A DNA stretch of 64,000 bases, from positions 2,418,001 through 2,482,000 of the forward strand of contig CM034546.1 of the NCBI GenBank assembly GCA_020055645.1, in the 5' to 3' direction. The position numbers were made by a program, and so were the translations under genes. The stretch comes from Tomocerus qinae. Taxonomy: Eukaryota; Arthropoda; Collembola; Entomobryomorpha; Tomoceridae. Shown piece after piece: positions 2,422 through 52,695 of the stretch; within the stretch, counting starts at the first letter, position 1; every line of letters starts with the position of its first letter. Below the pieces are notes generated by a model. The model had not been told where the DNA came from. It saw only the letters and a program-made list of their open reading frames with translations, and did not search any database.

Positions 2422-3919
2422 TTATAGAGCATCTGCTGAGCGTTGCCCACTTGGAAGAGGAATCGATGTGTTGAGACCAATAGGTCGAGGAAACCTCGGA
2501 GCATTGTCAGGGTTCCACTCCAACTTTTGAGCTCGAGCAGTTCGATTGAATCCATTTGCGTTCTCAATATCGGTTGCATGGTAGATCATCCACAGCTCCG
2601 ACCCATCTAGCCACAGTAAACAATTAAGGCTAGTCATCATTTAAAAATTAGAAAGTGAATTTAATTAAGTTGAATAAAAGTTACGATTACTTATTATAAT
2701 TTGCATTAAAATATAGCAGGTTTTATAGTAGTATTAAAAGGTAACGTTTATAATATCACTACAGATGTAAACGAATTTAAATATAATTGTTACCGGGAGA
2801 TGGAGTGAAAGAGGCGTGTCCAGTGGTGAAAACACCTTCTGCATCATTTCTCCAAAAGACACATTCGTCTTTGTCGTTCCACCAGTTTGAGGCAATGAGA
2901 GGATCCTTCAGACCGTCGATTCCGAAAATACCGAGACAGTAGTGCGGGGTAAAGGTGGAAGATGCTGAGAAGACGACGAAAGTTCTTCCGGCGTTCTGAA
3001 TGACGTAAGGTCCTTCGTTGACGGGGTAGCCGTGCATTTCCCAAGGTGACCGAGGAGAACGAAGAAGTCTTCTCGGGGAAATCACTCGCGTTGGATCGGA
3101 CATTGGGGCAATGTACAAATTCATTGAACCTGGTGGTTCTGGGAAGCCCACCCAAATGTAATACAAAGCACCGTCTCCGTACTGCATAACAGTACCGTCA
3201 ATTCCGTACCTTTCTTCTTCAGGAAGTAACCTGTTTACAGAAAATTTATTTTTTAATGAACAGGAAAAAAATTATTCATGCTAATTAATTTTCTACACCT
3301 GCTGGAATTATTTGGCATTTTACCATTATAATTAATAATTATATTCTGTTTTCCAAACCAATGTCATATTCGATATAAGCATTACAAATATTATCAAAAT
3401 ATAACTCATAAGGTTTATTTAGGTCTAATTTATAAATACTTACAACAGTATATCCCATAAAAGCCTACCATTTAATCAATTAATTAAAATTGTTGAGATT
3501 TTTGCATACCTAATTTCAGGACTCCAGTTTCCAAGAGGATTTCGAGGATCATCTGCCCTAATCACGTACATTCGATGATGCTCATCTGCGACTCCGTCGT
3601 CCATTGTGAAGTAGATGTAAAGGTTGTTACGGATGTAATGCATTTCAGGAGCCCATAAATTGGCTCTTCCTGGTGGAGCGTGATAAACCGTTCGGGACTC
3701 TGCATTCCGGAAGTTAGTGAAGACGGGACTTTTGTGGACTGTGATCCGGTCTCCCTCAGTGAAGACGAGGTAATAAAATCCTTCGTGCTTAAGAACAGCA
3801 GGATCTGCTGAATCTCTTCCAATTATAGGATTCCGAAACGTTTGAGAAAAGGCAGTCTTGGCAAAAATCGCCAGCACCATAAAACAGAGAAGATTTCTCA
3901 TGGCTAACATAATTGCCAT
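2422..3919 (-). CDS. GH43-type arabinofuranosidase/arabinanase-like secreted glycosidase, three exons
   Basis: Exons 3919-3510, 3230-2794 and 2606-2422 join in phase (phases 2 and 1) with GT-AG borders, giving 343 aa. A signal peptide (about residues 1-25, ending AFSQ) precedes the GH43 propeller start TFRNPIIGRDSADPAV. D39 in the ADP motif is the likely base. Y-G-I-D-G (D148) sits where the pKa-modulating Asp is expected, and N-E-G-P-Y (E209) where the general acid lies. WAPEM and DDPRNPLGNWSPEI are further GH43 blades. The family removes arabinose or related pentoses from plant or microbial polysaccharides; the exact substrate cannot be read from sequence. Starts at 3919, 3910 or 3901 are all possible. 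Bacterial-type content together with introns suggests an older, domesticated transfer. Confidence 0.88.
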
Positions 3920-4740: not shown

Positions 4741-7344
4741 CTAAGTATCTCTCTCCCAGTTAAGTTCAGTGGCAGCGCCTTTGCTATTCTCAAAAGTGTA
4801 CCATTCTGATTTCTTATCGACAAGTTTTGAAAAGGTAGAATTTTCAAAATCATATCTATGCCAAGCAAACATTCCAATTGTAAGTACTTTGAATCGTTCT
4901 TGTAGGTTTGTCAAGTCTTGATAAAATGAATCACTGGTAATATCATATTTTCTTATGTCGGTATCAACCACGAAATTGTGATTGATTTTTAGTTTTGTAT
5001 CTACGTCACCCCAATTTCTGACAGGCTGTTGCAGGATTAATTTTTCCAAATATAAATCTTCACCTAATATTTTAATATTGCAAAACGATTCAATTTTCAT
5101 GACGTTTTTGGGAATATCCGAAGATTTAATTTCCAGCAGGGTAGTTTTATTTGCTAAACCAGATTGGCAATATTCGTATCTAAATCTCAAGGTGGTTATG
5201 TTAGGGCATTGTGAAAACATTGGAAGAGACATTGACATTAAATCTGTTTTAACAAAGCCGTTAAAGGTCAGTGTATTTAGTTTTGGTAGAGTTATTTGCG
5301 GACCGTCAATAACTTTTGCATCACCCTGTAAAGTTAATTCTTCAACGTTACTTGGCAAAGCAGATAGACTAATTGTTGTTTGTGTAAGGTGAACTTTTCT
5401 GCTTTTCAAAGGTGTCGCAGTTTCCAGATTTGCAATGTTTTTTAAATACAGATTTTCAATTGTCCATGAAGCATTTTTCCAATTTTGTATTTCTATGCCG
5501 TCTAAGTTCAAATGCTCGATAGTGACTGGACTACTTAAATCGATTTTCAGTTCCTTTTGGCTGTTTTCAAAAATTTGTAATTGTTCGATTCGACTGAAAG
5601 CGACAAAGTCATTTACAAATATTGTTTTACTTGTCGAGAGTGCGTGACCAAATGTAACATTTCGTAGAAGTAGTCTTCGTGGTTGCATTTTGGCTTTGTT
5701 GCCTGTTTGTGCATTAACAGTTAGGCCTATTAATTTTATTTCTGACACAGATGACAGCAGATGAGGCGATACTTTTAATTTGCTGCAGCTAACTTTCTTT
5801 GAGTCGCCGTAAGGATCATCGGATAGTATAAATTCGCTCAGATTAGTGCCGATGAGCATGCTGTTAGATACATCGAATTCTGAAAATTTGTTTCCGTATT
5901 GGTCGAAAAATTTCGGTCGTGACATTGCTAAGTATTGCAAGTTACTAGGAAATGTAAGGCTTGAGTTTAGATACGGTTGCACCAGATTCACTGCGTTATG
6001 GCCCGAATTTCTTACTTCTAAGCGATGGAATGCTTCCGGGACATTAAAATTTCCTACCAGTAGATACATTTTATCACTTATCAGTTCCAGTATCCTCATA
6101 GTGCTTTGTATCGATGCAGAAGGTATAAAAAACTCTGTCTCATTTATTAGCATTTCTTTCACCTCATCAATGTTTCCATTATTCCACAACAACACTAATA
6201 GGTTACCAGTAACTACAGGTCCACTTAATTCCCTGTATCTAATATCAATAATTCCTTTGTCAGAATAAGCGTATCTCTCCGGTCTCAATAACAATTTATT
6301 CTCCGTATAATTATTTACCTTTAAATGGCCATGGAGGCACTGAAATATTAATATTGCTTCTGTAGTATTTCCTGAATATCCCAAAACTTTTCCGTAGTTG
6401 TATAAAGATTCTTTTGTTCTCACTACACTATGAATTTCTTTTGCCAATTGTGATGCTTCGACGTATCTTCCCTCGTTCACTAAATTGAGTAGCCGAGGAT
6501 GATCTATTGTAACACTTTTCACTATTGGATATTCATTCAGCAAATTTCCGTCTGCAAATTCAGCAGCTGCATATTTGTGGGCCTGAAACCCAGAGGATTC
6601 TAGGATCCTTCTGAGTGTGCCTTCCTTTTCATGTCTTCCATTGTATCTAATCAAAGGCAGAAATATGGGGTTAACTAATGTCACAATTTGTTCTCTGTTT
6701 TCGGGTAGTACTTCTCTGTCATTGATTATTAATTTTATTATTAATCCGTATGTTTGTAAAAGATCTGTAGCACTTTTGACATCTGAAATGCTACTGTTTG
6801 TTACTGATGAATAAAAATCCATTTTAACATTAAGATGACAAACGCCCATAAAGCTCCGAATTAACAAAATATCAAATGCCAATTTCCCAATGTCTCCTTC
6901 TTGGGTTTTCAAAATTTCTATTGCAACTGACATTGCCTTATTGATATATACTTCATTCTTATTAAATTCTAAATCACTTTCAACTTTTCTGTCTCCGATT
7001 CTGTCGATATAATCTTCAATTTCAATTTTCTTGTTTTCCAGACTTGCTGCTGCAAGACTTAGAGCCGCAGTTTTTCTCCCAAGTAGCGCGTTCAATTTCA
7101 AAAGTTGATCCGATTTGAGTGTAAGATGTTTGATTGCTTTCGTTAAATACACTATTTCTCCTTTTGGAGGAACTTCTTCGTCTTCATTAAATATGGTATC
7201 TTCATTATTTCTTGGCTCGCCTCCGATGCAGTGATATTCTGATTTGGGAGTTTGTAATTCTATGTTTTTATCACTCAGGCTGTAGCAATTTCCATCCACT
7301 TGGTTCACAAAGATGTATAGAAATATTAAAAGAATTGACACCAT
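4741..7344 (-). CDS. large secreted orphan protein with LRR-like C-terminal half, copy 1
   Basis: Single-exon frame of 867 aa. It starts with a hydrophobic signal peptide (MVSILLIFLYIFVNQ..., cleavage likely near G18) followed by NCYSL. An in-frame stop lies just upstream of the start. Residues about 30-280 are helical and charged. Residues about 280-360 look like a helical repeat (REGRYVEASQLAKEIH, then ESLYNYGKVLGYSGNTTEA), suggesting TPR-like hairpins. From about 480 on, regularly spaced leucines and asparagines (IEHLNLDGIEIQNW, TIENLYLKNI, SNVEELTLQG, LPKLNTLTFNG) resemble degenerate leucine-rich repeats. I do not recognise a named family. No transmembrane segment is seen after the signal, so secretion is likely. 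A paralogue lies just upstream in the same orientation. Function unknown. Confidence 0.75.
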   Translation of the reverse strand: MVSILLIFLYIFVNQVDGNCYSLSDKNIELQTPKSEYHCIGGEPRNNEDTIFNEDEEVPPKGEIVYLTKAIKHLTLKSDQLLKLNALLGRKTAALSLAAASLENKKIEIEDYIDRIGDRKVESDLEFNKNEVYINKAMSVAIEILKTQEGDIGKLAFDILLIRSFMGVCHLNVKMDFYSSVTNSSISDVKSATDLLQTYGLIIKLIINDREVLPENREQIVTLVNPIFLPLIRYNGRHEKEGTLRRILESSGFQAHKYAAAEFADGNLLNEYPIVKSVTIDHPRLLNLVNEGRYVEASQLAKEIHSVVRTKESLYNYGKVLGYSGNTTEAILIFQCLHGHLKVNNYTENKLLLRPERYAYSDKGIIDIRYRELSGPVVTGNLLVLLWNNGNIDEVKEMLINETEFFIPSASIQSTMRILELISDKMYLLVGNFNVPEAFHRLEVRNSGHNAVNLVQPYLNSSLTFPSNLQYLAMSRPKFFDQYGNKFSEFDVSNSMLIGTNLSEFILSDDPYGDSKKVSCSKLKVSPHLLSSVSEIKLIGLTVNAQTGNKAKMQPRRLLLRNVTFGHALSTSKTIFVNDFVAFSRIEQLQIFENSQKELKIDLSSPVTIEHLNLDGIEIQNWKNASWTIENLYLKNIANLETATPLKSRKVHLTQTTISLSALPSNVEELTLQGDAKVIDGPQITLPKLNTLTFNGFVKTDLMSMSLPMFSQCPNITTLRFRYEYCQSGLANKTTLLEIKSSDIPKNVMKIESFCNIKILGEDLYLEKLILQQPVRNWGDVDTKLKINHNFVVDTDIRKYDITSDSFYQDLTNLQERFKVLTIGMFAWHRYDFENSTFSKLVDKKSEWYTFENSKGAATELNWERDT

Positions 7345-8548: not shown

Positions 8549-11225
8549 TCATCTTCTTTTCCAGTCCAATTCGTCTTCATCTTTGAAATTGAATATGGTC
8601 TCCTTTAGTAAATCTTTAAGGTCAGTTGCTACTCCTTTACCATTCTGAAAAGTGTAGTATTTAGATTTTCTATCGACTAGCGTCGAAAAGGTGGAATTTT
8701 CAAATTTATAGAAAATCCAGTCAAATCGTCCAATTGTTAAAATCTTAAATCGCCTTTGCAGATCTGACAAATCCCTGTAAAAGGCATTGATGTTCATATA
8801 GTTTTTGCCTAAGTGGTCAATCAAGAAAATGTGGCTGGGTCTTAATTTCTTATCAATGATGTCACCCCAATTTCTGATACGCGGGTACATTATTAATTTT
8901 TCTAAATGCAATTCTTGCTCTCCTAATATTTTGATATTGCCAAACGATTCTATTTCCGTGACGCTCTTGGGAATATTTAAAGATATTAGTTCCAATGTAT
9001 CGCGGTATGTGAACCTTATTGTGGTTAAATTAGGACACTGCGAAAACAATGGAAGATACGCTAAAGAAGCTTGAGTCCCTTCTTCAAAATGCAATGTATT
9101 CAGTTTCGGTAGGAAAAATTGATCTCCGCCAATAAGTGTCGTATTTTTACCAAAAACAATTCTCTCAATAGTATTTGGAAGAGCAGTTAGATTGATTGTG
9201 GATTCTGCTATGTCAAGTTCAGTGATTTTCATGTTTGATGATTCCATGAAATTCATTTTTCTTAATTGCAAACTTTTGATTGTCCACGAAACATTATTCC
9301 AATTCTGCACATCAATGTCATTTATACGCAAGTCTTCTATAAAGATATCATCCATTCAAAATTATTTTTTGACTCATTGCATTAAGTTCTAATCGTTCAA
9401 TTCGACTAAAATCAACAAAGTCGTTTATAATTATTGTTTCACTTGTCAAGCCTGAGTGAGCCAAAGTAACATTTTTCAATGACAATCTTCTCGGGTTCAT
9501 TTTGTCTGTATCTGTTGGTAAAACAATCGAAGTGTCAAACAATTTTATTTTTGCAACAGTAGTGAGCTGATGAGTCGATACTTTCAATCTAGTACGGTTT
9601 TCAATTGAGCTCCCACTGTAATCATAGAACCATAAATCAAGGTTGGTCAATTTAGTTCCGCTCAACATATTTGTCATGTCGAATTCTAAAAGCTTATTTC
9701 CATGAGAGTCGAAAAATTTCGGTTGTCTATTTCGCAAGCTTTCCAAGTTACTAGGTAATGTAAAGTTTGGAAGCAAATCTAATTTTGTTAGATCAACTTT
9801 GTTGAAAGAATAATCTGCGAGCACCAAACGTCTGAAGCCTTCGGAGTAAGAATGGTCATACAGGTGGTACTTTGTGTCCGTAATTAGTTCAAGTATCTGC
9901 ATTGTTTGATAGATGGATGTTGGAGCTATGCTAAACTCTGTCTCTTTTCCTAGCATCTCCTTAACCTTATCAATATTTCCGTTATTCCACAGTAATACTA
10001 AAAGATTACCTTTAATAACTGTTCCACCCAAATCCCTGTATCTAATATCAATGATCCCTTTACTGGAATAAACTTTTCCTCTCGCGCTTATAAATCTTTC
10101 GTCGTTTTTATTTTCTGCAAAGTTGGTCTTAAAATTACTGTAGAGGCACTGAAATATTGACAGAGCTGCCGGGATGTTTCCAGAATATTCCAAAACTTTT
10201 CCGAAGTTGTATAAAGATTCTCTTGTTCTCACTACTTTATGAATATCTGCTGCCAATTGTAATGCTTCGAAGTATCTTTCCTTCTCTATTAAACTTATTA
10301 GCCGAGGATGATCTTTTGTAGCACTTTTGACCATTGGATAGTCATTCAAAAAACCTTCATCTGCGAATTCAGCGGCTAAATATTTAAGATTTTGGTACCC
10401 TGAAGTTTCAAATATCTTTCTGAGTGTATTTTGTTTTTCATATCTTTCATTGTAACGAATCACAGGTAAAAATATTGGATTAACTAATGTCAAAGTTATT
10501 TCCTCGTCATTTTTTTGTCCTATTAGACTTCCGTGGTCAATTATTGTTTTCTTAATTAATCCGTAACTTTGTAAAAGATCTATAGCACTCTTGACATCGC
10601 CAATGCTGCTCCTTGTTACTGATGAATAAAAGTTCAAGTCAACAAAAAGATGGCAAGTACTCAAGAAACTCCTAATTAGCAAAATATCATATGCCAATTT
10701 TCCAATGTTTCCTTCTTTAGTGTTCAAAATTTCAATTGCTGCTGACATTGCCTTATTGATATATTCTTCATGTTCATTTAACCCAAAATCACTTTCAATT
10801 CTTTTATTTAAGTTTTCACTTTTAATATAATCTTCAAGTCCAATTTTCTTGTTTTCCAGGGTTGCTACAGCAAGATTTACAGCCAAAGTTTTTCCTCCGA
10901 GTAGATAACTCAACAGATCAATTTGATCAAAATTTATTGAAAGATGTTTCATTGCTTTAATAAAATATATCACTTCTTCATTATTGTCAGAAATGTCTTC
11001 ATCTTCATTAAATATGTAATCCCCACCTTTTTTTGTTGCCTCATCTCCGATGCATCGATATTCTGATTTGGGAGAGTGCAATTTTATATTTTCATCACTA
11101 AGGTTGTAACAGTTTCCATTTCCCCGCTCCAAAAATATTGATAGATATATCAATAGGATTGTAACCCCACAGGTATCAAAAATGACCCGCCTTTTCTTAG
11201 GCTGAAGATTTCTGGCGAATTTCAT
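8549..11225 (-). pseudogene. secreted orphan LRR-like protein, copy 2, split by a frameshift
   Basis: Two overlapping frames, 11225-9348 (625 aa) and 9355-8549 (268 aa), together match copy 1 end to end. The first has a signal-like start (residues 1-38, then NCYNLSDENIKLHSPKSEY) and ends at ...RIERLELNAMSQKIILNG; the second resumes at ...FIEDLRINDIDVQNWNNVSWTIKSL. The break falls in or near A and T runs at about 9352-9372 (minus strand caaaaaataatttt), so either a real single-base indel or a sequencing error is possible. Joined, it would be close to 890 aa and colinear with the 867-aa paralogue. A 6-kb transposable element begins only 46 bp before the start codon, which may also have cut it off from its promoter. 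Function unknown. Confidence 0.75.
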
Positions 11226-11502: not shown

Positions 11503-11520
11503 AACTAATTTCTTAGAAAG

Positions 11521-14500
11521 ACTTAACATTGGACTTAGCATGGGGAATTAACATGGGACTTAGCATTGGACTTAGCATTGGACTTAGCATGGGGAATTAA
11601 CATGGGACTTAGCATTGGACTTAGCATTGGACTTAGCATGGGGAATTAACATGGGACTTAGCATTGGACTTAGCATTGGACTTAGCATGGGGAATTAACA
11701 TGGGACTTAGCATTGGACTTAGCATTGGACTTAGCATTGGGAATTAACATGGGACTTAGCATGGGGATTTAACATAGGACTTAGCATTGGACTTAGCATT
11801 GGACTTAGCATTGGACTTAGCATTGGACTTAGCATTGGACTTGGCATTGGACTTAGCATTGGACTTAGCATTGGACTTAGCATTGGGAATTAACATGGGA
11901 CTTAGCATGGGGATTTAACATGGGACTTAGCATTGGACTTAGCATTGGACTTAGCATTGGACTTAGCATGGGGAATTAACATGGGACTTAGCATTGGACT
12001 TAGCATTGAACTTAGCATTGGACTTAGCATTGGACTTAGCATTGGGAATTAACATGGGACTTAGCATGGGGATTTAACATGGGACTTAGCATTGGACTTA
12101 GCATTGGACTTAGCATTGGACTTAGCATTGGGAATTAACATGGGACTTAGCATGGGGATTTAACATGGGACTTAGCATTGGACTTAGCATTGGACTTAGC
12201 ATTGGACTTAGCATTGGACTTAGCATTGGACTTAGCATTGGGAATTAACATGGGACTTAGCATGGGGATTTAACATGGGACTTAGCATTGGACTTAGCAT
12301 GGGGAACTAACATGGGACTTAGCATTGGACTTAGCATTGGACTTAGCATTGGACTTAGCATGGGGAATTAACATGGGACTTAGCATTGGACTTAGCATTG
12401 GACTTAGCATTGGACTTAGCATTGGACTTAGCATGGGGAATTAACATGGGACTTAGCATTGGACTTAGCATTGGACTTAGCATTGGGAATTAACATGGGA
12501 CTTAGCATGGGGATTTAACATGGGACTTAGCATTGGACTTAGCATGGGGAATTAACATGGGACTTAGCATTGGACTTAGCATTGGGAATTAACATGGGAC
12601 TTAGCATTGGACTTAGCATTGGACTTAGCATTGGGAATTAACATGGGACTTAGCATGGGGATTAGCATTGGACTTAGCATGGGGATTTAACATGGGACTT
12701 AGCATTGGAATTAGCATTGGACTTAGCATTGGACTTAGCATTGGACTTAGCATGGGGAATTAACATGGAACTTAGCATTGGACTTAGCATTGGACTTAGC
12801 ATGGGGAATTAACATGGGACTTAGCATTGGACTTAGCATTGCACTTAGCATTGGGAATTAACATGGGACTTAGCATTGGACTTAGCATGGGGAATTAACA
12901 TGGGACTTAGCATTGGACTTAGCATTGGACTTAGCATTGGACTTAGCATGGGGATTTAACATGGGACTTAGCATTGGACTTAGCATTGGACTTAGCATTG
13001 GACTTAGCATGGGGAATTAACATGGGACTTAGCATTGGACTTAGCATTGGACTTAGCATGGGGAATTAACATGGGTTTTAGCATGGGGATTTAACATGGG
13101 ACTTAGCATTGGACTTAGCATTGGACTTAGCATTGGACTTAGCATTGGACTTAGCATTGGGAATTAACATGGGACTTAGCATGGGGATTTAACATGGGAC
13201 TTAGCATTGGACTTAGCATGGGGAACTAACATGGGACTTAGCATTGGACTTAGCATTGGACTTAGCATTGGACTTAGCATTGGACTTAGCATTGGACTTA
13301 GCATGGGGAATTAACATGGGACTTAGCATTGGACTTAGCATTGGACTTAGCATTGGACTTAGCATTGGACTTAGCATTGGGAATTAACATGGGACTTAGC
13401 ATGGGGATTTAACATGGGACTTAGCATTGGACTTAGCATTGGACTTAGCATTGGACTTAGCATTGGACTTAGCATGGGGAATTAACATGGGACTTAGCAT
13501 TGGACTTAGCATTGGGAATTAACATGGGACTTAGCATGGGGATTTAACATGGGACTTAGCATTGGACTTAGCATGGGGAATTAACATGGGACTTAGCATT
13601 GGACTTAGCATTGGACTTAGCATTGGACTTAGCATGGGGATTTAACATGGGACTTAGCATTGGAATTAGCATTGGACTTAGCATTGGGAATTAACATGGG
13701 ACTTAGCATGGGGATTTAACATGGGACTTAGCATTGGAATTAGCATTGGACTTAGCATTGGACTTAGCATTGGACTTAGCATGGGGAATTAACATGGAAC
13801 TTAGCATTGGACTTAGCATTGGACTTAGCATGGGGAATTAACATGGGACTTAGCATTGGACTTAGCATGGGGAATTAACATGGGACTTAGCATTGGACTT
13901 AGCATGGGGAATTAACATGGGACTTAGCATTGGACTTAGCATTGGACTTAGCATTGGACTTAGCATGGGGATTTAACATGGGACTTAGCATTGGACTTAG
14001 CATTGGACTTAGCATGGGACTTAGCATGGGGAATTAACATGGGACTTAGCATTGGACTTAGCATTGGACTTAGCATGGGGAATTAACATGGGACTTAGCA
14101 TTGGACTTAGCATTGGACTTAGCATGGGGAATTAACATGGGACTTAGCATTGGACTTAGCATTGGACTTAGCATTGGGAATTAACATGGGACTTAGCATG
14201 GGGATTTAACATGGGACTTAGCATTGGACTTAGCATTGGACTTAGCATTGGACTTAGCATTGGACTTAGCATGGGGAATTAACATGGGACTTAGCATTGG
14301 ACTTAGCATTGGACTTAGCATTGGACTTAGCATTGGACTTAGCATGGGGAATTAACATGGGACTTAGCATTGGACTTAGCATTGGACTTAGCATTGGGAA
14401 TTAACATGGGACTTAGCATGGGGATTTAACATGGGACTTAGCATTGGACTTAGCATGGGGAATTAACATGGGACTTAGCATTGGACTTAGCATTGGACTT

Positions 14501-17190
14501 AGCATTGGACTTAGCATGGGGAATTAACATGGGACTTAGCATTGGACTTAGCATTGGACTTAGCATTGGGAATTAACATGGGACTTAGCATGGGGATTTA
14601 ACATGGGACTTAGCATTGGAATTAGCATTGGACTTAGCATTGGACTTAGCATTGGACTTAGCATGGGGAATTAACATGGAACTTAGCATTGGACTTAGCA
14701 TTGGACTTAGCATGGGGAATTAACATGGGACTTAGCATTGGACTTAGCATTGCACTTAGCATTGGGAATTAACATGGGACTTAGCATTGGACTTAGCATG
14801 GGGAATTAACATGGGACTTAGCATTGGACTTAGCATTGGACTTAGCATTGGACTTAGCATGGGGATTTAACATGGGACTTAGCATTGGACTTAGCATTGG
14901 ACTTAGCATGGGACTTAGCATGGGGAATTAACATGGGACTTAGCATTGGACTTAGCATTGGACTTAGCATGGGGAATTAACATGGGACTTAGCATTGGAC
15001 TTAGCATTGGACTTAGCATGGGGAATTAACATGGGACTTAGCATTGGACTTAGCATTGGACTTAGCATTGTACTTAGCATGGGGAATTAACATGGGACTT
15101 AGCATTGGACTTAGCATTGGACTTAGCATGGGGAATTAACATGGGTTTTAGCATGGGGATTTAACATGGGACTTAGCATTGGACTTAGCATTGGACTTAG
15201 CATTGGACTTAGCATTGGACTTAGCATTGGGAATTAACATGGGACTTAGCATGGGGATTTAACATGGGACTTAGCATTGGACTTAGCATGGGGAACTAAC
15301 ATGGGACTTAGCATTGGACTTAGCATTGGACTTAGCATTGGACTTAGCATTGGACTTAGCATTGGACTTAGCATGGGGAATTAACATGGGACTTAGCATT
15401 GGACTTAGCATTGGACTTAGCATTGGACTTAGCATTGGACTTAGCATTGGGAATTAACATGGGACTTAGCATGGGGATTTAACATGGGACTTAGCATTGG
15501 ACTTAGCATTGGACTTAGCATTGGACTTAGCATTGGACTTAGCATGGGGAATTAACATGGGACTTAGCATTGGACTTAGCATTGGGAATTAACATGGGAC
15601 TTAGCATGGGGATTTAACATGGGACTTAGCATTGGACTTAGCATGGGGAATTAACATGGGACTTAGCATTGGACTTAGCATTGGACTTAGCATTGGACTT
15701 AGCATGGGGATTTAACATGGGACTTAGCATTGGAATTAGCATTGGACTTAGCATTGGGAATTAACATGGGACTTAGCATGGGGATTTAACATGGGACTTA
15801 GCATTGGAATTAGCATTGGACTTAGCATTGGACTTAGCATTGGACTTAGCATGGGGAATTAACATGGAACTTAGCATTGGACTTAGCATTGGACTTAGCA
15901 TGGGGAATTAACATGGGACTTAGCATTGGACTTAGCATGGGGAATTAACATGGGACTTAGCATTGGACTTAGCATGGGGAATTAACATGGGACTTAGCAT
16001 TGGACTTAGCATTGGACTTAGCATTGGACTTAGCATGGGGATTTAACATGGGACTTAGCATTGGACTTAGCATTGGACTTAGCATGGGACTTAGCATGGG
16101 GAATTAACATGGGACTTAGCATTGGACTTAGCATTGGACTTAGCATGGGGAATTAACATGGGACTTAGCATTGGACTTAGCATTGGACTTAGCATGGGGA
16201 ATTAACATGGGACTTAGCATTGGACTTAGCATTGGACTTAGCATTGGGAATTAACATGGGACTTAGCATGGGGATTTAACATGGGACTTAGCATTGGACT
16301 TAGCATTGGACTTAGCATTGGACTTAGCATTGGACTTAGCATGGGGAATTAACATGGGACTTAGCATTGGACTTAGCATTGGACTTAGCATTGGACTTAG
16401 CATTGGACTTAGCATGGGGAATTAACATGGGACTTAGCATTGGACTTAGCATTGGACTTAGCATTGGGAATTAACATGGGACTTAGCATGGGGATTTAAC
16501 ATGGGACTTAGCATTGGACTTAGCATGGGGAATTAACATGGGACTTAGCATTGGACTTAGCATTGGACTTAGCATTGGACTTAGCATGGGGAATTAACAT
16601 GGGACTTAGCATTGGACTTAGCATTGGACTTAGCATTGGGAATTAACATGGGACTTAGCATGGGGATTTAACATGGGACTTAGCATTGGAATTAGCATTG
16701 GACTTAGCATTGGACTTAGCATTGGACTTAGCATGGGGAATTAACATGGAACTTAGCATTGGACTTAGCATTGGACTTAGCATGGGGAATTAACATGGGA
16801 CTTAGCATTGGACTTAGCATTGCACTTAGCATTGGGAATTAACATGGGACTTAGCATTGGACTTAGCATGGGGAATTAACATGGGACTTAGCATTGGACT
16901 TAGCATTGGACTTAGCATTGGACTTAGCATGGGGATTTAACATGGGACTTAGCATTGGACTTAGCATTGGACTTAGCATGGGACTTAGCATGGGGAATTA
17001 ACATGGGACTTAGCATTGGACTTAGCATTGGACTTAGCATGGGGAATTAACATGGGACTTAGCATTGGACTTAGCATTGGACTTAGCATGGGGAATTAAC
17101 ATGGGACTTAGCATTGGACTTAGCATTGGACTTAGCATTGTACTTAGCATGGGGAATTAACATGGGACTTAGCATTGCACTTAGCATTTT
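11521..17190. repeat. 12/18-bp minisatellite array with a higher-order repeat of about 2,070 bp
   Basis: Units of GGACTTAGCATT (12 bp) alternate irregularly with GGGAATTAACATGGGACTTAGC and GGGATTTAACAT variants over about 5.7 kb. Rare variants recur exactly 2,070 bp apart: atgggtttta at 13071 and 15141, tacttagcat at 15071 and 17141, and tgcacttagc at 14751 and 16821. The stretches I compared between them (13141-13260, 13621-13680 and 14161-14190 against +2,070) are identical, so about 12,960-15,030 has been copied as a block to 15,030-17,100. There is no gene inside. Confidence 0.95.
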
Positions 17191-27655: not shown

Positions 27656-28010
27656 TCTAAATAAATTGATCAATGATGAAAATGATATAAAATGACAAAT
27701 AATGAAATAATATTTTAAATTGCATTGTATTTTAAAATATAATTTAAACATGGAAATTAAATGATTATACCTGACACTTAATGATTAAGAACCTAGAAAT
27801 TATTTTGAGGTAATAATTATTTCGATTGATCTGAATCTGAGCTTGGTTGTAGTCGTAGTTTTAATTAATTTTTACAATTGAACATTTGTCTTTGGCGCCA
27901 TGCCAGTTCTCAATTTGTAGTGTTACGCTGTAATGTCGGGTGTGATAAAATACCCGAAACACGACAACGTGGATGTACATACCCCAAACACGACAACGTG
28001 GGTGTACATA

Positions 28011-28550
28011 CCCGAACTGAAAGCAGAATGGTCCATAATACCCGAACTGAAAGCAGAATGGTCCATAATACCCGAACTGAAAGCAGAATGATACATAATA
28101 CCCGAACTGAAAGCAGAATGATACATAATACCCGAACTGAAAGCAGAATGATACATAATACCCGAACTGAAAGCAGAATGATACATAATACCCGAACTGA
28201 AAGCAGAATGATACATAATACCCGAACTGAAAGCAGAATGATACATAATACCCGAACTGAAAGCAGAATGATACATAATACCCGAACTGAAAGCAGAATG
28301 GTCCATAATACCCGAACTGAAAGCAGAATGGTCCATAATACCCGAACTGAAAGCAGAATGATACATAATACCCGAACTGAAAGCAGAATGATACATAATA
28401 CCCGAACTGAAAGCAGAATGATACATAATACCCGAACTGAAAGCAGAATGATACATAATACCCGAACTGAAAGCAGAATGATACATAATACCCGAACTGA
28501 AAGCAGAGTGATACATAATACCCGAACTGAAAGCAGAATGGTACATAATT
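28011..28550. repeat. 30-bp minisatellite, 18 units
   Basis: Unit CCCGAACTGAAAGCAGAATG followed by a variable 4-mer and ATAATA, repeated 18 times. The 4-mer is GTCC in units 1, 2, 10 and 11 and ATAC in most others, pointing to duplication of a nine-unit (270-bp) block. Because 30 is divisible by three and the unit has few stops, long frames stay open on both strands; they are artefacts. Just to the left (27953-28008) is a related 28-bp duplication around ACACGACAACGTGG. The array lies about 350 bp upstream of the FLYWCH gene start. Confidence 0.97.
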
Positions 28551-43059: not shown

Positions 43060-46000
43060 ATGGTTAAGGACGAGCCAAAGTCGAATTGTATGAAAAATAT
43101 AATTCATACATCCGGTACCATGAAAAGCTCACCAAAAAATCTTCCTTCAAACTCCGAGGCTCAAACCTATTTTCCATTCAGCAAGGAAGCTTTTCTGCCA
43201 ATAATCAATCATGTCTTCCTTCCAAGAAGACTTCCTCAGGCTCAAGAGGATGATATTGAAAATATTGAAAGAAACTTATTAGCTACAGCAATGGACGTTA
43301 TTGTGGAATTTAAAAATGTACTACCGGGTTCTTCCTATTCTCTTTTTAAAAACTGGGTCGATTTGCAAAAATTCTCAAATTTGGATTCTGTTAATTTTAT
43401 TTCGGAAACAATACAATCCATGGAAAACGGAGAAATGCTAGCATTTTATTTAAGAGCTCAAAATTGCGGAATGATTTTATTCAGACCATTAAATGAGGAT
43501 CATGCAGTCATGTCCACTTTTAAATCCTCAATGAGAAATGAGTTAGTCGTCTCATCCCCAAGCGATATTGTGGCGTCGTTTCCACAACAGTCAATCACAA
43601 TTCCATTCAGCAACTTATTAAAATCAAAAACGCTTGCCCAGCAAATTTCTGATTTACATGCAGAGGAAATAAGTTTGGCTATGCCACAATCGAGAAAAGC
43701 GGGTCATAACTTTGATGAAATTCGGGATGTGTCAAACACAATGTTTGTATCCGAATGGCTTACAGCATCTTTGTCCAATGAAAATTCTTTCCCATGTACT
43801 GACTTCCCGACAATCGTGAAGAAAATTAGAGATGACGTTTTGTTGAAAGGTTCTACATTATTTCCTTTTCGTAGATCGGGATTTTGGATGACAATAAAAG
43901 TAGTCCTTCAACTTAATTTAAAGCAGGAACTTGGAACTTTAAATGGAAAATTGATGTACAAGCTTTTAATGGCAAGTCTCATGACCCGAATGTGTGGCTT
44001 TTGGTGTCGTGTTCCGTCGATTGATATCGACGTTGCTTTACAAATGCTAGCAAAGTTGGCCAGAAGACTCGAAAAATTGAAAAAAATTGTGAAAGAGACC
44101 GAGGCGGTTGATATGTTTCCACTGTATCAAAAGATTACTGGAGAAGCTTCGAAGGTGATTGAAGAAGTTCGTAAATTGATGGACAAAAAATTCCGAAAGA
44201 TTTACGAAAATGATGTCAAAGGAAAAGAATTGCAACCTCTTCAAGGGTTAAATTTCAACCGAGATATTTTTCAAACAGTATCAACCCTTCAAAAATATTT
44301 ATTTGACCGACAGAAAAAAGAAGAAGCATCCCAGAACGGGAACATTCGCTTAAAACCGAAACATTTCTTACGTCTTCGCGATACGAATTTCCCTTTCGTT
44401 GATTTATTGAACAGGATAAATATCCAGGACGAAATTGAAGCAGGATTTGTTCTGACCGATATTGAAAATTGGATCCACACTGAATTGGAAAACGTTAACG
44501 GAAGTGCTGATAAAATCCGTGAACTAGCAAATGCCTATTCAACTAAAGCGAGAAGTTATTACAAAGATGATCCGGTTGGTTCGAGTCGAATGCTGTTCGC
44601 CCTTTTAAAGATGATTTACGTTGTTGATAAAATGGCAATAAAAAGATGCCCTACGCTAACAGATCACAGATGTGGACTGAGCCCAGAAATATTTCACGAA
44701 TTACTGCTACGGGAAAGGCCGGAATTGTTAAAAGCGTTAGAAATGGAATCCTACTTTAGCGAAAGAGACAAAATTGCCAATTATCCGTCTGTTATCGAAG
44801 AAAATGAAGTTACAGTAGATTCATTTGGATCACGATATGCTTCTGGTAACCTTGAAATGACAAGATTAAAGGAACAAATTTTGGAAAATACAGAAGAGGC
44901 TATTTTAAGGAAATATGAAGAGTTGAGAAGTGCAAGAGAAAAACTGTCCAACTGGAGAAATGACTACCATCGGATTTCCCATGACATGAAATATGACAGA
45001 TATGGAGATAGGATCTGCTGTTATGATTGCACTAAATGCAGATTAAAATCGAGCATTGACAATTGTAGGGTACAAATCTATGAGCGTACATTAAGGCACG
45101 AGCGTCACTACCAAGATGCAGTTGTGTTTGAGTTGTTGATTCCTGTTGAAGTTGCTTGTCTCAGGGATTTGCTTCATATGTTTATTTTTGACTTCTGCAA
45201 TCAATCGGGCCAACGAATCAAAATTGCAGGCGAATGGACTAATCATCCAGAATTATCTTGGACTAACCGATGGCAAGAACGAGTAAAGCTAGGTAGCACT
45301 ACGGTAAGATTTGCTAAGTCCCACTACAGCAATCTTCATCCCGATCAACCAGATGACAATTTTATCGCCAACTGTGCATACAATTGTACATTTTTCGGAC
45401 CAGGTAAGAAAAACCTTTCTGTAATTTTCAAAAAACTGCCTAGCTTTTATATTTATTTCTTTTGTGGGCTCCTTTCGTTGTGTAGATAGCGGGTAGACCT
45501 ATACACACTGAGCACGAATAACAGTTATACTGTATATAGGTATGTAGGAAATGTAAAATCCTGATGCTCTAACTCGAATTACGTGCTTACAGGCAATACG
45601 ACAATAGCAAGAAATGTGCATAAAGACAGCATCCGACACCTCTGTACCTTTAAGGTTCAACCTGAATCACCGTACAGCAATATGGATTGGGCTTTGAAAC
45701 AGACAAAAAATTATTCCAACGACAGTTTAGCAAAGCAGTCAGATTGTCACAAAGACCTGTCACTACCCGAGTATGTTGAATTTGGGTCACTGAGATCTGG
45801 ACATCGACTCCAGATAAGAAATATTTATAGAGCGTTGGCAACTGCAAAACTTTCTTTTAAAAATTCATCTGTCGTTTCTCTGATTCTCCAAAGTTTGTGG
45901 GAGGCGGGCCCTAATGTAGATACCACCAAATGGTACAGAGAATCACATGAAGATTTGACTGATCCAATTTTTACTGCCAAGATGGTCGAAGAGATGCAAT

Positions 46001-49000
46001 GCTTCGTCAGGTCACAGAAGAAAAACTGGAAAGAGCCCAACAATTTATTAATCATCATTCTGATCACTGTGAGAATCCTTGAATTAAATTCAATGCCAAA
46101 AGTCATTGACCAGGCTCTTCTTTTACTTACTGAATGCAGGGATATCGCACAAGAATGGATTTCAAAAATCGAGGATGTCATATCAAAATGTAACTTAGCC
46201 AAAAATTCAAGTGGCAAAGATAAAACAATGCCCAATCAATCCAATGACGAAGATAATACAATTGATAAAGAAATTGACGAGCTGAGGTCCATTCTAATTG
46301 ATGTCGCTATTTGTTGCTCATTGACGTTTTCAGTTAATCCAAAATGTGAATTCTTCAGCAAAGTCTTAAATGCTTCTACAATGAATGCTTGGCTGACTTC
46401 TGTCGTGAAAACAGATAATAATATCAACTTGTCTGCCGGGTTATGTAAATCAAATATTGAGCAACGAAATTTCCTCAGGTTAGTCCGCTATGTAGGAATC
46501 AATATTGAAAAATCATTAGCCACATTAGCCGAAGGAAATCTTTACGAATTAAATCGTTTTACCCAACTTCAATGGGCTGGGGCAGAAAATGGAACTTTTG
46601 ATGCTTGGAAATTGGAGGATAGCCCCGCCCAACAAGTTTGTTATGCTCAAATGATAGATGTACTCCAAAAACTGCACTGGATTCAAATTGATCTGATTCT
46701 GGGAAAATTTCTGGTTGATGGAAAGCCAGTCTCTAGACTATCGGATGACATTCTGCACCACAAACAGTACATCAGAATATTCGGTGGAACAATTTTTGAA
46801 GTGCAGCCGACTGATGACAGATTTTGTACTATTTCCAAGTACAGTGGATGTAGTTATTTCTTTTCGATGTCTGGAGAAAATGTAATTGTTACCGAGCAAA
46901 ATAACTGCGGAGAAATATCTGAGTTAATTCCTCACGAAAATATGGTCAATGAAATGCCATTTCTCTTAGTTGAGAATTTTAGCCATTGGTGGCAAGCTGA
47001 CAAAAATATTATTAACTTCAGACCGAAAAGTTTCCAAAATAATCGTTTTTCTTTTGATGAAGGAATCGAGTACATCTTCGACACAAAATCTAAACTCCTT
47101 AAAGAATGCAAATCCTTACGTCACGTGGCCGATATAACTAAAACCAGTTTTAAAAATGTTGCATCATTTCTATCAAGGATTGAATTACCGGAATATATTT
47201 TGGTATTGGCGACAAATAATCATAAAGTTGAAATAGAGCTTCCGAGGCTGGCATTACAATTTCAAGTGGACGAAAAAAACCAAATGGTCTCTAGGGAATA
47301 CAAAGGCATGAAAATTTGTGTGAATCCAAAACTGGAAGTATTTCTGGGATTACAAAGTGGGATATTTCTAGAAGACTCTGACAGTACTTCAAGAAATGAA
47401 AAAATGTTTTTGGTTCCGCATGGAAATATCCTCTCTGGCGTTACAATGGGCCACCAAAAGGTTGTATCTGTAAATGAACTTAGGGAACCTCCATTTTTTG
47501 TATACGAAGTTGATGAAAGCTTTCGCTATTTAAAAGCAGGTAAAAATTATTCGGCTTGGTTTTACTTGGCGAATCTTCATGCAGTTACGTCCAGCCCTTT
47601 GCCCGACCCTTTTACGGGTATGACAGGATCAGAAAGAGCGCTGCAAATTCTCCAGTCAGGATATTGCTGGTCATCAGAACCATTTGATACAGAGTCTATA
47701 AAAACCATGAAAGCTATTTCCAAACTGTCACCAACACGGCAATATTATCCTCCACATTTAAGAGACATGCAAAGGATATATTGGCCTTCTTCTGTTTCCT
47801 CATCTGCAGCCCACGATTCTTATTCACTAATTGTAGACAAACTAATGGAAGATAGTACGCGACTGAAATTTCTGTACTCTAATGAAGATGTAAAGGGCGA
47901 TTCAAAAGACAATGAGAAAAATAATAATAAACAGGACCTTACGGAGAAAGCTTATTTCAGACATATCTGCTACAATCCCAATGCAAAACTTGCAGATAAC
48001 TTTGAAACAATTTTGACACTCAGGAATAGTAGCTACTCTCGTTTCCAGGGTTCACTAACACCTAATTCTCTAAAGAATTCCAGAATTGCAGCTTGCTTAG
48101 GACACAATTGGAAGTACATAGTCCCTGAAAATAGTCTCACCCTTTTGATACAAAGACTAATAGATGGAAGTGATACCGAAGGATTGCTACAAGGAGCCTT
48201 GGGATTTAAAGAAAATAATCTTAAATCGTGGCTAAGCTTTGACTTTCGAAATAATTGGCTGAATTTGTACAACTTTGCGCGGAAAGTTGGTTCTCTTCAT
48301 GCGGAATCGCAGTGGACGCTCCTGTTATCCATACTTGCATATTTAGACGTCCGCATCGATGAACTTCAAATACTTCATACAATTGCGGTAAATCCGAAAT
48401 CTTTTGCCGACAAGAATCCTCCTTCATACGAATCTTACAAAAATCCCAAACTGCAAACTTTCTCTTCATCCGACATTGCTTCCATTTTCCGTTCCAATTG
48501 TATTTCCGAAGATGCGTACCTGTCAAAAAAAGGTTATGGTAGTTGCTGGTCTTCCTACAGTGACTACCACATAAGGAGAATAAGAGAAATCAGGAAAGAG
48601 TACAGTTCTGAACTACCTTCTGAAGCGACAGCTTTGACTAAAGAATTGGAAAGGATGTGGCCCTGCAATTACTGCCATTCAGGAAACTTCCGGACAAATG
48701 TATCTATCGTTAAAATAAGGGATGCTATGTCAGAAATAAATTCTTTACTCAAAAGTTGGTACGCAAACAGAGAGTTAGGGTTATTCTTACAAGATATTTC
48801 CGCTAAACTAAATGAGTTAAAATTGACCCAAAATGGTAGTAACTACTTGCCATTACACGAGTGGAGGAATCCTGTCCCAGAATTGGTAATTGAACCAAAA
48901 TACCAAATAAATTATACGGAAAAGATGTCGCAGCAGCTCGAGGATGGACATAAGCTTCAATTGGCCGAAGAAATATTCAAATCAAAAAAGCCCAGCAGCT

Positions 49001-52000
49001 ATCAAAATGTTAACAGTAGAGACTTTTGGAAAATTTTGGAAGATCACATTGTCCCCAAAGGCGAAAATTATTTGATGGCCTCAGGACTTTATCCTAGGAT
49101 AGTTCCCAGTATCATGCTTCCAATGGTTCTTTTACAAAATTCTACAATTAACCAAAATATGCAAAGGTTGATCGACCTCGTAGGCTGTATCGGAACATTA
49201 TTGAGTCTTGAGAAACAATCTACCCGAATTGAGAAATTCAGGAAAGGAGGACAGAGGTTTGAAGTGGCTTTGCAAAATGAATTGATAGCATTGTCCACTG
49301 TGGAATGGAGCCGAGCTGAATATCCGAGTTGGCTTCTCATTGAACTGGAAATGAATATAACGATAAGAATGATCCAAATTAAAGTTGCTCATCAAATGAT
49401 AAAAAGTGACAGCCACAGCGTATTGCAATTAAATATGGGCGAAGGAAAAACCGCCGTAATTGTACCACTTTTGGCATCTCTTTTGGCTGACGGGAAACAA
49501 CTTTGTCGTGTTACAGTTTTGAAGTCTTTGTATCGCACCAATTTAAGCGCTTTGAGACAATGTCTTGGAGGAATGCTAAATCGACGAATTTATACTGTAC
49601 CTTGTCGACGAGACAGGAAAATGGAAGTGGATGAAGCAAATAAGATTTTCGAATCCTATCAAGAATGTTTGACTAACAAAGGAATTGTAATGACTCTACC
49701 TGAATATCGACTGTCCTTTCAGTTGAAAATGTACGAAACGGCCCGACAAAGCAAGTTTCAAACATCGCAAATATTGACTAAAATACACGACTGGCTAAAT
49801 TCAAATGCAAGGGACATTTTAGATGAATCGGACGAAATTCTGCACGCAAAGTATCAATTAATTTATACAGTTGGAGAACAACTATTACCAGGGGGCGGAA
49901 CATTGCGGTGGACGGTTGTTCAAGATCTGCTAAAACTTGTTCCAGATGAAGTTAAAAAACTTCGGCAAAATTACGGTTATCAAAAGGTTGAATTTGACGA
50001 AGAATTTGCCAACAAAAATGGCCATCAAATATTTTGGCCCTGCAGACTCCTTTCCAAAGACGTTTATTTGGAATTGAAGAACATTCTCGCAGATAAATTT
50101 CTGGCAGGGCATACCACTATACAATTTCCTGAATTAACAGATAAGAAAAGGGAAATCATCAAACGATTTCTAACTAGAACAGATATCACAATTGAAGAGC
50201 ACGCACTGGCTGTAGGTATGTTCAAAGATAATAATCTTCTGAGAGATACGGTGTTAATATTGGCGGGCTACCTCAAATATGAAGTCCTCTACTTGGCTCT
50301 CACAAAACGATGGCGAGTAAATTATGGCGTGAATCAGCTAGGCCACCGAAATATGGCAGTTCCATTCAAAGCTAAAGATGTTGCAGCAGAAATGACAGAA
50401 TTTGGTCATCCGGATGTTGCGATTTGCTTAACACATTTGAGTTATTACTATTCTGGATTAAGCAACGATCAATTGCTTAAAACATTTGAATTGCTTGCAA
50501 AGCTTCCCAATGCTGACACCGAATATCAAAATTGGATTTCCAAAGTTCCTGTTAATGAAATAGACAGTTCCATTACGACATACAGCGGAATAAATTTGAA
50601 AGACTCAAGCCAAAGGGAACTTTATTTATTTCCTGTGTTGAAGAAGAATATGTACGTGATTGACTTTTGGCTTAACAATATCGTTTTCCCAAGGGAAGCG
50701 AAACAATTTGCAGGTAAGATGATGTGCACGGCTTGGGATCTTGTGTCTGAAGACCAACAAAGAACAGTTACTGGATTCAGTGGGACTAACGACTCCAAAC
50801 TGTTGCTTCCCTTACCAATCCAGCAAAGAGATCTACCAGAATTGGAAAAAACAAACGAGGAAGTCAGGAATGTACTTTTACTCCCAGAAAATGACAATTA
50901 TTTGGCTCTGGAGCCAAATGTTAGAAGCATTTCAATTTTGGAGAAATTGGCAGAAAATAATATTCAAGTATTGCTAGATCCTGGAGCTTTGATGCTCGAA
51001 TTGAATAATTATGAAGCTGCATCAGAATGGCTTAAAATTGTCCAGAAAAAATATTTGGATAGGGACATTAAAGCTGCTGTTTACTTTGATTCAAGAAATG
51101 TTCTAATGGTCACTGATGGACTAAATCGACCCAGAGAGCTGGAATTGTCTCCATTTAGAGATAGTTTAGAAAAATGTGTGACTTATTTGGATGATGTCCA
51201 TACAAGAGGGACAGATTTGAAGTTTCCTCCAGGCACTAAAGCATGTGTAACTTTATCAGGAGACATTACCCGGGATAAAACAGTGCAAGCGTGTATGAGG
51301 ATGAGAATGTTGGGGAAAGGTCATACAATTCGTTTCTGGGCATCACAAGAGGCAGATAATAAAATTCGAAAATCTTGTGGGAAATGCGGTGATACAAAAG
51401 AGATGATAAATAATACAGATGTGGTCGAATGGATATGCAAAAACAGCAGAGACTTTGAGAAAGAAGGTTTAGTCCATTGGTCCGCAGCTGGATACAACTA
51501 CACAAAGAAACGGGCAGCCCACAGAAAACTTGGAAACAGTTATTCGGACGAAGATTTGCAAAAACTGTCGGAAGGATGCAGCGATAAAGAAATATTTGAA
51601 CTCATGTACATATATGGTGAATTCAAAAACGAAGAAAAGCTCACCACTATAATTCGAAAGCGATTTGGTGATCTTGTTGCTGAAAATTCCCTCCAGGGAA
51701 TAGAAGTCATCAATAAGGCTACAGATGATGATGAAATGATTGTTTCCACAATGAAAAGTATTCTTGGCCGCGTAGAAGAATGGATCCCCGATAAGAAACG
51801 ATTTATTCAGCTATTGGATGAAGAACAGGAGAAAGAATTGGAAAATGAAACGGAAGAAGAAAGACAAGTCAGTAGACCTGGAAATGCTACTCCAGTTGTT
51901 CCAAAATTTGATCCAATTGTAAAGAATATGATTGCAAATGGATATAGCAATCCTTTGATTTTATTTAACTCGCTTAACAAGCTTCCATTTGTATTGGACA

Positions 52001-52695
52001 ACACGAGTATGTGGAATATAGCCCAGAGTGACGGCTGGGGAAATTGCATATTTGCAACTCAAGATTTCAAGTCAGTGATCAAACCTGAAGCCAAACATGA
52101 CAAAGTTGATGAATTTTTGCGACCCGTTTCTTGGATTGCGAATATTCGCAGTTCATCAGGCGATTCGTCTCAACAATCAATGTTAATTCTACTCAGTCCA
52201 TTTGAAGCAAATGAATTCATTCCCATTTTCCGGGCTTCAAAGTTTTCTACTTTGCACATGTTTGCACCAAGATTGCATCCAAAGCATGACAATCTGCTAA
52301 ATACTTCACAGCTTCAAGTCCCAGCTCGAAAAGAAGGAAATGCAGAACTCATCGATGGACATCTGGAATCACAGTTATCTGTATTTTCTGGTGCACTTTA
52401 TTTTCGCGATAAAAAAGAACAAGATGATTATTGCAATTTTGCTGGACTCATTCCTGGGCCAAGATCTGTCATTCATCAAAAAGCATATGACGAAGGTCAT
52501 ATTTCAAGCACTGGCTTTTTAGATCCAGATTTTCGAAGAGACATTTCACAGGAAATAGAACAATTCTGTAAATTTCAAAAATGTCCTGATAAACTCATCC
52601 GATATCTAGCTGAACAACGCCATCAACTTTTCCCAAAAACGTGTCACGTCGCTTCCGTTGTGGTCGAGTCGAAGAAACCGTTTCGGGAAGATTGA
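43060..52695 (+). CDS. giant DUF6606-DUF3638-DUF3645 family protein with helicase-like motifs, about 3,148 aa
   Basis: Exons 43060-45403 and 45593-52695 join in phase 1 (CCAG|GTAAGA ... TTACAG|GC). The N-terminus has INHVFLPRRLPQ at 49-60, the hallmark of DUF6606. The DUF3638 core carries a Walker-A-like LNMGEGKTAVIVPLLA (GEGKT at 2064-2068) and a DExD-like DILDESDEIL (2192-2195). DUF3645 follows near 2355 (LGHRNMAVPFKAKDVAAEMT, then GHPDVAICLTHLSYYYSG). Further on, HTRGTDLKFPPGTKACVTL and VQACMRMRMLGKG resemble the late motifs of SF2 helicases. The architecture and length match fungal and oomycete proteins often labelled ubiquitin hydrolase, although no experiment I know of fixes their role. 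ATG 43060 follows a TAG that is both an in-frame stop and a possible acceptor. All key motifs are intact, so it looks functional. Confidence 0.9.

Follow-up and report, generated by a model that had tools for sequence, protein, structure and literature searches.

What might a giant protein of the DUF6606-DUF3638-DUF3645 family do in an animal? The question is raised by a gene at 43060-52695 on the forward strand of a 64,000-nucleotide stretch of the springtail Tomocerus qinae genome (contig CM034546.1, positions 2,418,001 to 2,482,000), which we call the window. The family is met in fungi, ciliates and microsporidia and now in an animal genome, and it carries a doubtful label and no function in the papers found. 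The evidence supports an ATP-driven superfamily 2 (SF2) motor with two probable RecA-like domains at residues ~2017-2874 of the protein. Our best explanation, an SF2 motor in a giant scaffold that acts in a SecA-like manner and is used in conflict between cell and microbe, stands as a whole a little short of an even chance. What is new beyond the initial annotation of this DNA is the bacterial relatives of the protein and its SecA-like layout. The link to this layout shows which residues could be mutated, suggests a class of substrate for assays and invites comparison with the giants of amoeba-dwelling bacteria.

The initial annotation had called the biology of the family essentially open, and the literature searched (subscription journals and preprints lie outside it) agrees. 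The three domains are rarely named there, the six Pfam/InterPro accessions of the family appear in no paper, and neither a functional study of the DUF3638/DUF3645/DUF6606 family nor a statement linking it to SecA was found. Where the domains are mentioned, an Aspergillus lineage-specific gene list names one of the DUFs (PMC6237848), a nine-gene expansion in Hypomyces is listed alongside ankyrin and BCS1 families (PMC6627653), Tetrahymena members are reported and their mechanism is called undefined (PMC12615304), and a figure legend marks a large microsporidian gene family with the domain (PMC5423893).

The giant gene and its motor

The gene is real and intact. Two open frames, 43060-45489 and 45583-52695, are joined by splicing out one intron, and the resulting two exons encode 3,148 amino acids (aa) without an internal stop, which confirms the intact protein of about this length that had been annotated. 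An in-frame TAG stands immediately 5' of the ATG. Exon 2 holds 2,366 open codons, a run with a chance of ~1e-75 at the given base composition, and has 0 stops in the coding frame against 87-191 in each of the other five. Codon usage correlates at 0.90 with that of a long open frame nearby (4744-7344, minus strand).

The annotated domains also hold, since a Pfam profile search placed all three above their cut-offs: DUF6606 at 9.2e-54 (183 bits, cut-off 27), DUF3638 at 4.6e-76 (255.5 bits, cut-off 31) and DUF3645 at 3.3e-12 (46 bits, cut-off 25). Beyond these, no Pfam family exceeded its cut-off in the 3,146 aa scanned, the DEAD family matching at merely 0.026, and an NCBIfam scan returned nothing above cut-off. 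The Walker-like GEGKT, the DESD box and the QACMRMRMLGKG motif that had been described were located at residues 2064, 2192 and 2680 (Table 1).

Does this part of the protein keep the residues of a working ATPase? We aligned 43 motors (alignment A1), namely the window motor and 42 of 46 reference motors. The lower-scoring L083, L143, L144 and L147 were omitted, the similarly low L063 was retained, and Legionellales motors were deliberately excluded. The other motors are 16-23% identical to the window motor. With positions numbered on P0001, the second G (G87) and the K (K88) of motif I occur in 43/43 motors, as do the D and E of motif II, whose second D is found in 40/43. The motif III threonine T534 is kept in 42/42 motors, G675 and D677 of motif V in 39/41 and 38/41, and the Q and both R of motif VI in 39/39 and 38/38, respectively. 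Within DUF3645, the proline P393 is present in 42/43 motors and the phenylalanine F406 in 40/43. The window motor has every one of these residues, including the catalytic residues of motifs I, II, V and VI that mark an SF2 ATPase. DUF3645 scored under the Pfam cut-off in five bacterial motors scanned. Because its P and F are kept in bacterial motors despite these scores, DUF3645 probably belongs, as far as the alignment tells, to an insert that the motors share between motifs II and III.

An SF2-type motor inside a huge scaffold, as initially proposed, is therefore borne out by near-invariant motif residues, by profile matches to SF2 families and by SF2 ATPases among the top Foldseek matches of both structure models, weak as these models are. 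They come from two AlphaFold runs with seven alignment rows each, one for the window motor and one for its bacterial relative L064. Both low-confidence models contain two better-predicted strand-helix blocks; their best regions include the first RecA-like block and parts of the second, and the insert between motifs II and III is poorly predicted in both. Foldseek matches of the window model, all weak, were to SNF2/INO80, FANCM, MDA5, DEAD-box and SecA structures (6gox, rank 18, prob 0.92), with dynein chains also among them. For the L064 model, SecA-SecY with substrate (5eul) came at rank 2 (prob 0.99) and SecA 2ibm at rank 4. At the level such models allow, the Foldseek results support SF2, allow SecA and decide neither.

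Likeness of the motor to SecA

Which SF2 motor does the giant resemble? Nine SecA proteins, obtained from 10 genomes searched, share the order GEGKT, DEVD or DEID, MTGTA and GRGTDI, to which we apply the usual SecA motif names. As in SecA, a large insert (~320 aa) separates motif II of the window motor from a TGT-type motif III. The spacing of the two motifs is 318 aa in the window, 163-181 aa in six of the SecA proteins and 293-294 aa in the three chlamydial ones. The insert sits where SecA has its preprotein-binding domain. We regard a SecA-type architecture of the motor as moderately supported and slightly the better bet.

Giants with a recognisable SecA domain allowed a second comparison. 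A P-loop pattern search of prokaryote genomes gave 59 stretches, 5 of them with a DUF3638 motor (L023, L054, L060, L063 and L064) and 4 with SecA-domain giants (L008, L032, L036 and L045, from Legionellales metagenome-assembled genomes). PF07517 matched these four at 4e-15 to 3e-11 and PF21090 matched 3/4; three of the four Legionellales genomes also match DUF3638. With L183 and L185 they make up the six SecA giants used here. The four and L185, whose frame runs to 5,314 aa, are bacterial giants with SecA_DEAD and may form a separate SecA-motor giant family.

The nine SecA proteins and six giants together gave three collinear local matches to A1, and in global mode they matched it at 98% (E 1e-12). 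The local pieces cover motifs Q-II (89%, E 2e-6), the motif III region (8.8%) and motifs V-VI (1.7%). Setting aside a loosely trimmed DEAD-box set, discussed below, the whole-motor match to A1 was best for the six SecA giants, at 93.5% for the first half and 36% for the second (E 4e-4, 219 columns). The nine SecA proteins alone reached ~10% locally, with motif III among the top three local matches. When the second half was cut out, SecA plus giants scored 76% (E 2e-5, 163 columns), SecA alone 27% and DEAD-box proteins 5%, and none of eight other SF2 clusters exceeded 1.4%. Across these profile tests the joint set of SecA and SecA giants ranked above other SF2 families, but either set by itself was weak in some of them. 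In an early comparison of A1 with four full-length SecA giants, the P-loop alone matched (12%). The global alignment also places the DUF3645 stretch near SecA GRRWSDGxHQAxEAK, a placement forced by the global mode and of low posterior confidence.

What speaks against a SecA-like motor? Several results do. Neither SecA_DEAD (PF07517) nor P-loop_SecA (PF21090) was listed for the giant protein at E up to 1, ordinary SecA alone had no global profile match to A1, and a PDB search with the 43-motor profile returned no SecA chain and, weakly, XPB, XPD and PriA; sequence searches of solved structures gave no confident match. The SecA giants were picked after being seen, and with the second half cut out they score 1.7% by themselves, so the 76% depends on the mixed set. 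Four of the eight other SF2 control clusters are single sequences and hence weak controls. Column shuffles reached the SecA-plus-giants score in 4/60 cases (2/60 for the giants, 1/60 each for SecA and DEAD-box) in a noisy null with outliers near 133-137. DEAD-box proteins, a set of diversity similar to the SecA set, fit the first RecA domain equally well (88%). A core-trimmed DEAD-box set (18/22 sequences; the P-loop pattern did not fit the other 4) reached 65.6% globally (E 8e-6), but with motifs V and VI placed in the insert. The loosely trimmed DEAD-box set even exceeded SecA, at 99.1% locally and 99.7% globally, with further matches of 11-13 columns at E 5e-15; we presume this score to be an artefact of low-complexity tails. 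Finally, confidence is low in both AlphaFold models (mean pLDDT 53.0 for the window and 60.9 for L064; pTM 0.32 and 0.33), and MDA5 ranks first for the L064 model, above SecA. Since DEAD-box proteins match the first half just as closely and neither AlphaFold model is good, we speak of a resemblance of the motor to SecA and do not claim SecA membership.

The strongest rival explanation is an SF2 translocase or sensor of nucleic acid, of the RIG-I/MDA5, Dicer or FANCM type, with the giant scaffold serving in signalling. MDA5, Dicer, FANCM and SNF2/INO80 proteins are among the top Foldseek matches, the first RecA domain fits DEAD-box proteins as well as SecA, and the P-loops of XPB and XPD were weakly matched in the PDB profile search. 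However, the window insert falls between motifs II and III, which is not its place in those families, the second half fits both DEAD-box proteins and the eight SF2 clusters, four of them single sequences, poorly, and the Pfam scan of the giant protein found no RNA- or DNA-binding family above cut-off. We consider the nucleic-acid explanation unlikely, if still the most serious competitor. A degenerate motor, in which the scaffold would bind ATP or nothing and serve a structural role, is improbable: the window has an alanine at P0001 position 400, within DUF3645, where 41/43 motors have proline, but in motifs I, II, III, V and VI it keeps the conserved residues. Least probable is a deubiquitinase whose motor unfolds substrate for a protease domain in the scaffold, a notion that comes from the label quoted in the initial annotation; the doubt expressed there over "ubiquitin hydrolase" was justified, and we rejected the label, because the Pfam and NCBIfam scans listed no peptidase, OTU, UCH, USP or ubiquitin-binding family in the 3,146 aa.

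Bacterial relatives and a possible role in conflict

How far does the family extend? We searched whole genomes with PF12340, counting matches above the Pfam cut-off (with those at E up to 0.001 in brackets). It was found in 94/232 genomes (110) of Chlamydiota, the phylum of L060, and in 55/143 (56) of Legionellales, the order of L023. Matches also occurred in 4/11 genomes (4) from the order that includes gammaproteobacterial L064, in 2/74 (7) of the phylum of L063 and in 8/11 selected genomes (8). None of 14 mixed genomes matched (0), in a search without a positive control of its own. Named controls gave 0/14. There was no match above cut-off among 398 genomes sampled evenly from Pseudomonadota (0; the phylum of L053, Xenorhabdus), again without its own positive control, or among 296 sampled evenly from Bacteroidota (3; the phylum of L009, Rufibacter). 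Legionellales lie within Pseudomonadota, so 0/398 means rarity outside a few orders and not absence. The family is thus much wider in bacteria than had been supposed. The initial statement that it is known mainly from fungi and oomycetes was incomplete, as it is common in Chlamydiota and Legionellales and is reported in Tetrahymena and microsporidia.

Bacterial DUF3638 frames, among the matches listed, are mostly 2,400-5,345 aa long; some are shorter, and many of these are probably truncated by contig ends. Many genomes hold several copies, and some of Chlamydiota have at least 11 matches. A profile built from 21 giants at 20 loci, which belong to Chlamydiota and related bacteria and include no Legionellales, matched the window protein at residues 1144-1446 (1.5e-25) and 2017-2874 (9e-87), and hhalign joined residues 1146-2874 to it at E 1e-53. 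Residues 1-1143 and 2875-3148 were unmatched by this profile. DUF6606 had no match in 182 Chlamydiota genomes, nor in the controls, though the window protein matches the model. A search of prokaryote genomes with the window protein's own peptides gave 9 stretches, none confirmed as relatives. Weak PF12340 matches on frames of ~690-860 aa were at first taken for possible SecA; the one examined (L149) resembles another helicase, and the idea was given up.

Why would such a motor be maintained? Our best guess is an ATP-driven polypeptide translocase, with nucleic acid the less likely substrate, that would serve cytosolic conflict with microbes. The insert and the second RecA domain would grip an extended chain, most likely unfolded polypeptide, and cycles of ATP would push the gripped chain, as in SecA, while the N-terminal part of ~2,000 residues would select the substrate. 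We infer the polypeptide substrate tentatively, leaning slightly against it on balance, and the role in conflict with cytosolic microbes more tentatively still. The latter is suggested by the amoeba-dwelling bacterial groups in which the family occurs, by multiple copies in many genomes and by reported expansions in fungi and microsporidia. These bacterial groups are known above all for living in amoebae and other host cells. Amoebophilus effectors have been listed as including SecA-like helicase-related domains (PMC3482391).

A bolder proposal is that the DUF3638/DUF3645 giants are an unrecognised SecA-type branch in the eukaryotic cytosol, exchanged among protists, fungi, a few animals and intracellular bacteria, which threads or extracts foreign proteins in host-microbe conflict. 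We think this quite unlikely in its full form. SecA-like threading is not known outside bacterial and plastid export; if the link of the motor to SecA is right, such threading would operate in the eukaryotic cytosol too.

Genomic setting and known systems

Table 1. Features of the giant gene and protein, in window positions
Feature	Position	Strand	Residues or basis
Exon 1	43060..45403	+	residues 1-781 plus one base
DUF6606 (PF20255)	43201..43995	+	residues 48-312, Pfam
Sole intron, 189 nucleotides, phase 1, GT-AG (GTAAGA...TTACAG)	45404..45592	+	
Exon 2 including stop codon	45593..52695	+	residues 782-3148
Scaffold block common to bacterial giants	46678..47586	+	residues 1144-1446, domain E 1.5e-25
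Motor block common to bacterial giants	49297..51870	+	residues 2017-2874, domain E 9e-87
DUF3638 (PF12340), first RecA-like domain, holding motifs I and II	49303..49962	+	Pfam
Motif I GEGKT	49438..49452	+	residues 2064-2068
Motif II DESD	49822..49833	+	residues 2192-2195
Insert between motifs II and III	49876..50724	+	motor alignments
DUF3645 (PF12359), within insert	50350..50433	+	Pfam
Motif III GFSGT, aligned to SecA GMTGT	50773..50787	+	residues 2509-2513
Motif V RGTDL, aligned to SecA GRGTDI	51205..51219	+	residues 2653-2657
Motif VI QACMRMRMLGKG	51286..51321	+	residues 2680-2691

How did the gene come to an animal? Horizontal transfer is plausible because of neighbouring GH43 and GH18 genes and reported foreign genes in springtails. 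A total of 809 foreign genes are reported for the springtail Folsomia (PMC5490193), and animal GH43 genes are reported in springtails, a midge and a tardigrade (PMC9460274). The single intron is weak evidence of transfer, since the window has other long uninterrupted frames (867 aa at 4741-7344 and 294 aa at 1152-2036). A recent contaminant is disfavoured by the intron and by codon usage near that of the neighbouring frame. In a tree of the 43 A1 motors, the window motor stands beside L063 with support 0.994. L063, the closest motor in that tree, has DUF3645 above cut-off and lies, within a bacterial assembly, on a contig of 4.3 kb. It may be a eukaryotic contaminant, so its placement says nothing on transfer. 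An origin from a phage, plasmid or virus was rejected: phage and plasmid records had no protein match to the giant, a peptide scan of viral contigs was empty, and the P-loop pattern there gave 6 stretches, none family-like by eye.

Other features of the window were recorded in passing. A GH18-like gene of 294 aa (PF00704, 4e-9) occupies a single frame at 1152-2036 (+), and a GH43 gene (PF04616) lies in two frames at 2777-3919 (-); transfer of this family into springtails, a midge and a tardigrade has been reported. Adjoining proteins at 4741-7344 and 8549-11225 (-), the second spanning two overlapping frames, are similar by eye, with a signal-like start and no Pfam family above cut-off. A 12-bp minisatellite of ~463 copies with strong GC skew covers 11520-17188, and a 30-bp tandem repeat at 28008-28549 (18 copies at 98%) has long open frames on both strands.

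How does the giant compare with known systems? Like members of the DUF3638/DUF3645/DUF6606 family, it has all three domains above their cut-offs and is of giant size; it differs from known members in occurring in an animal genome. The DUF3638 giants of Chlamydiota and Legionellales have the same motifs, and the window protein aligns through residues 1146-2874 with the profile of the chlamydial and related giants, whereas those of Chlamydiota lack a DUF6606 match in the 182 genomes. The SecA-domain giants L008, L032, L036 and L045 share the giant size and the interior position of the motor but, unlike the window protein, have a recognisable SecA_DEAD and do not match DUF3638 at E up to 0.1. RIG-I-like receptors and Dicer also combine an SF2 motor with an insert, and MDA5 is the top structural match for the L064 model; their insert is located in the second RecA domain, whereas that of the window motor lies between motifs II and III. 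SecA itself (PF07517, PF21090) has the same order of motif I, motif II, insert, motifs III, V and VI, shares the TGT type of motif III and the GTD of motif V, and differs in motif VI, which reads QxRGRxGRxG in SecA and QxxxRxR in the window.

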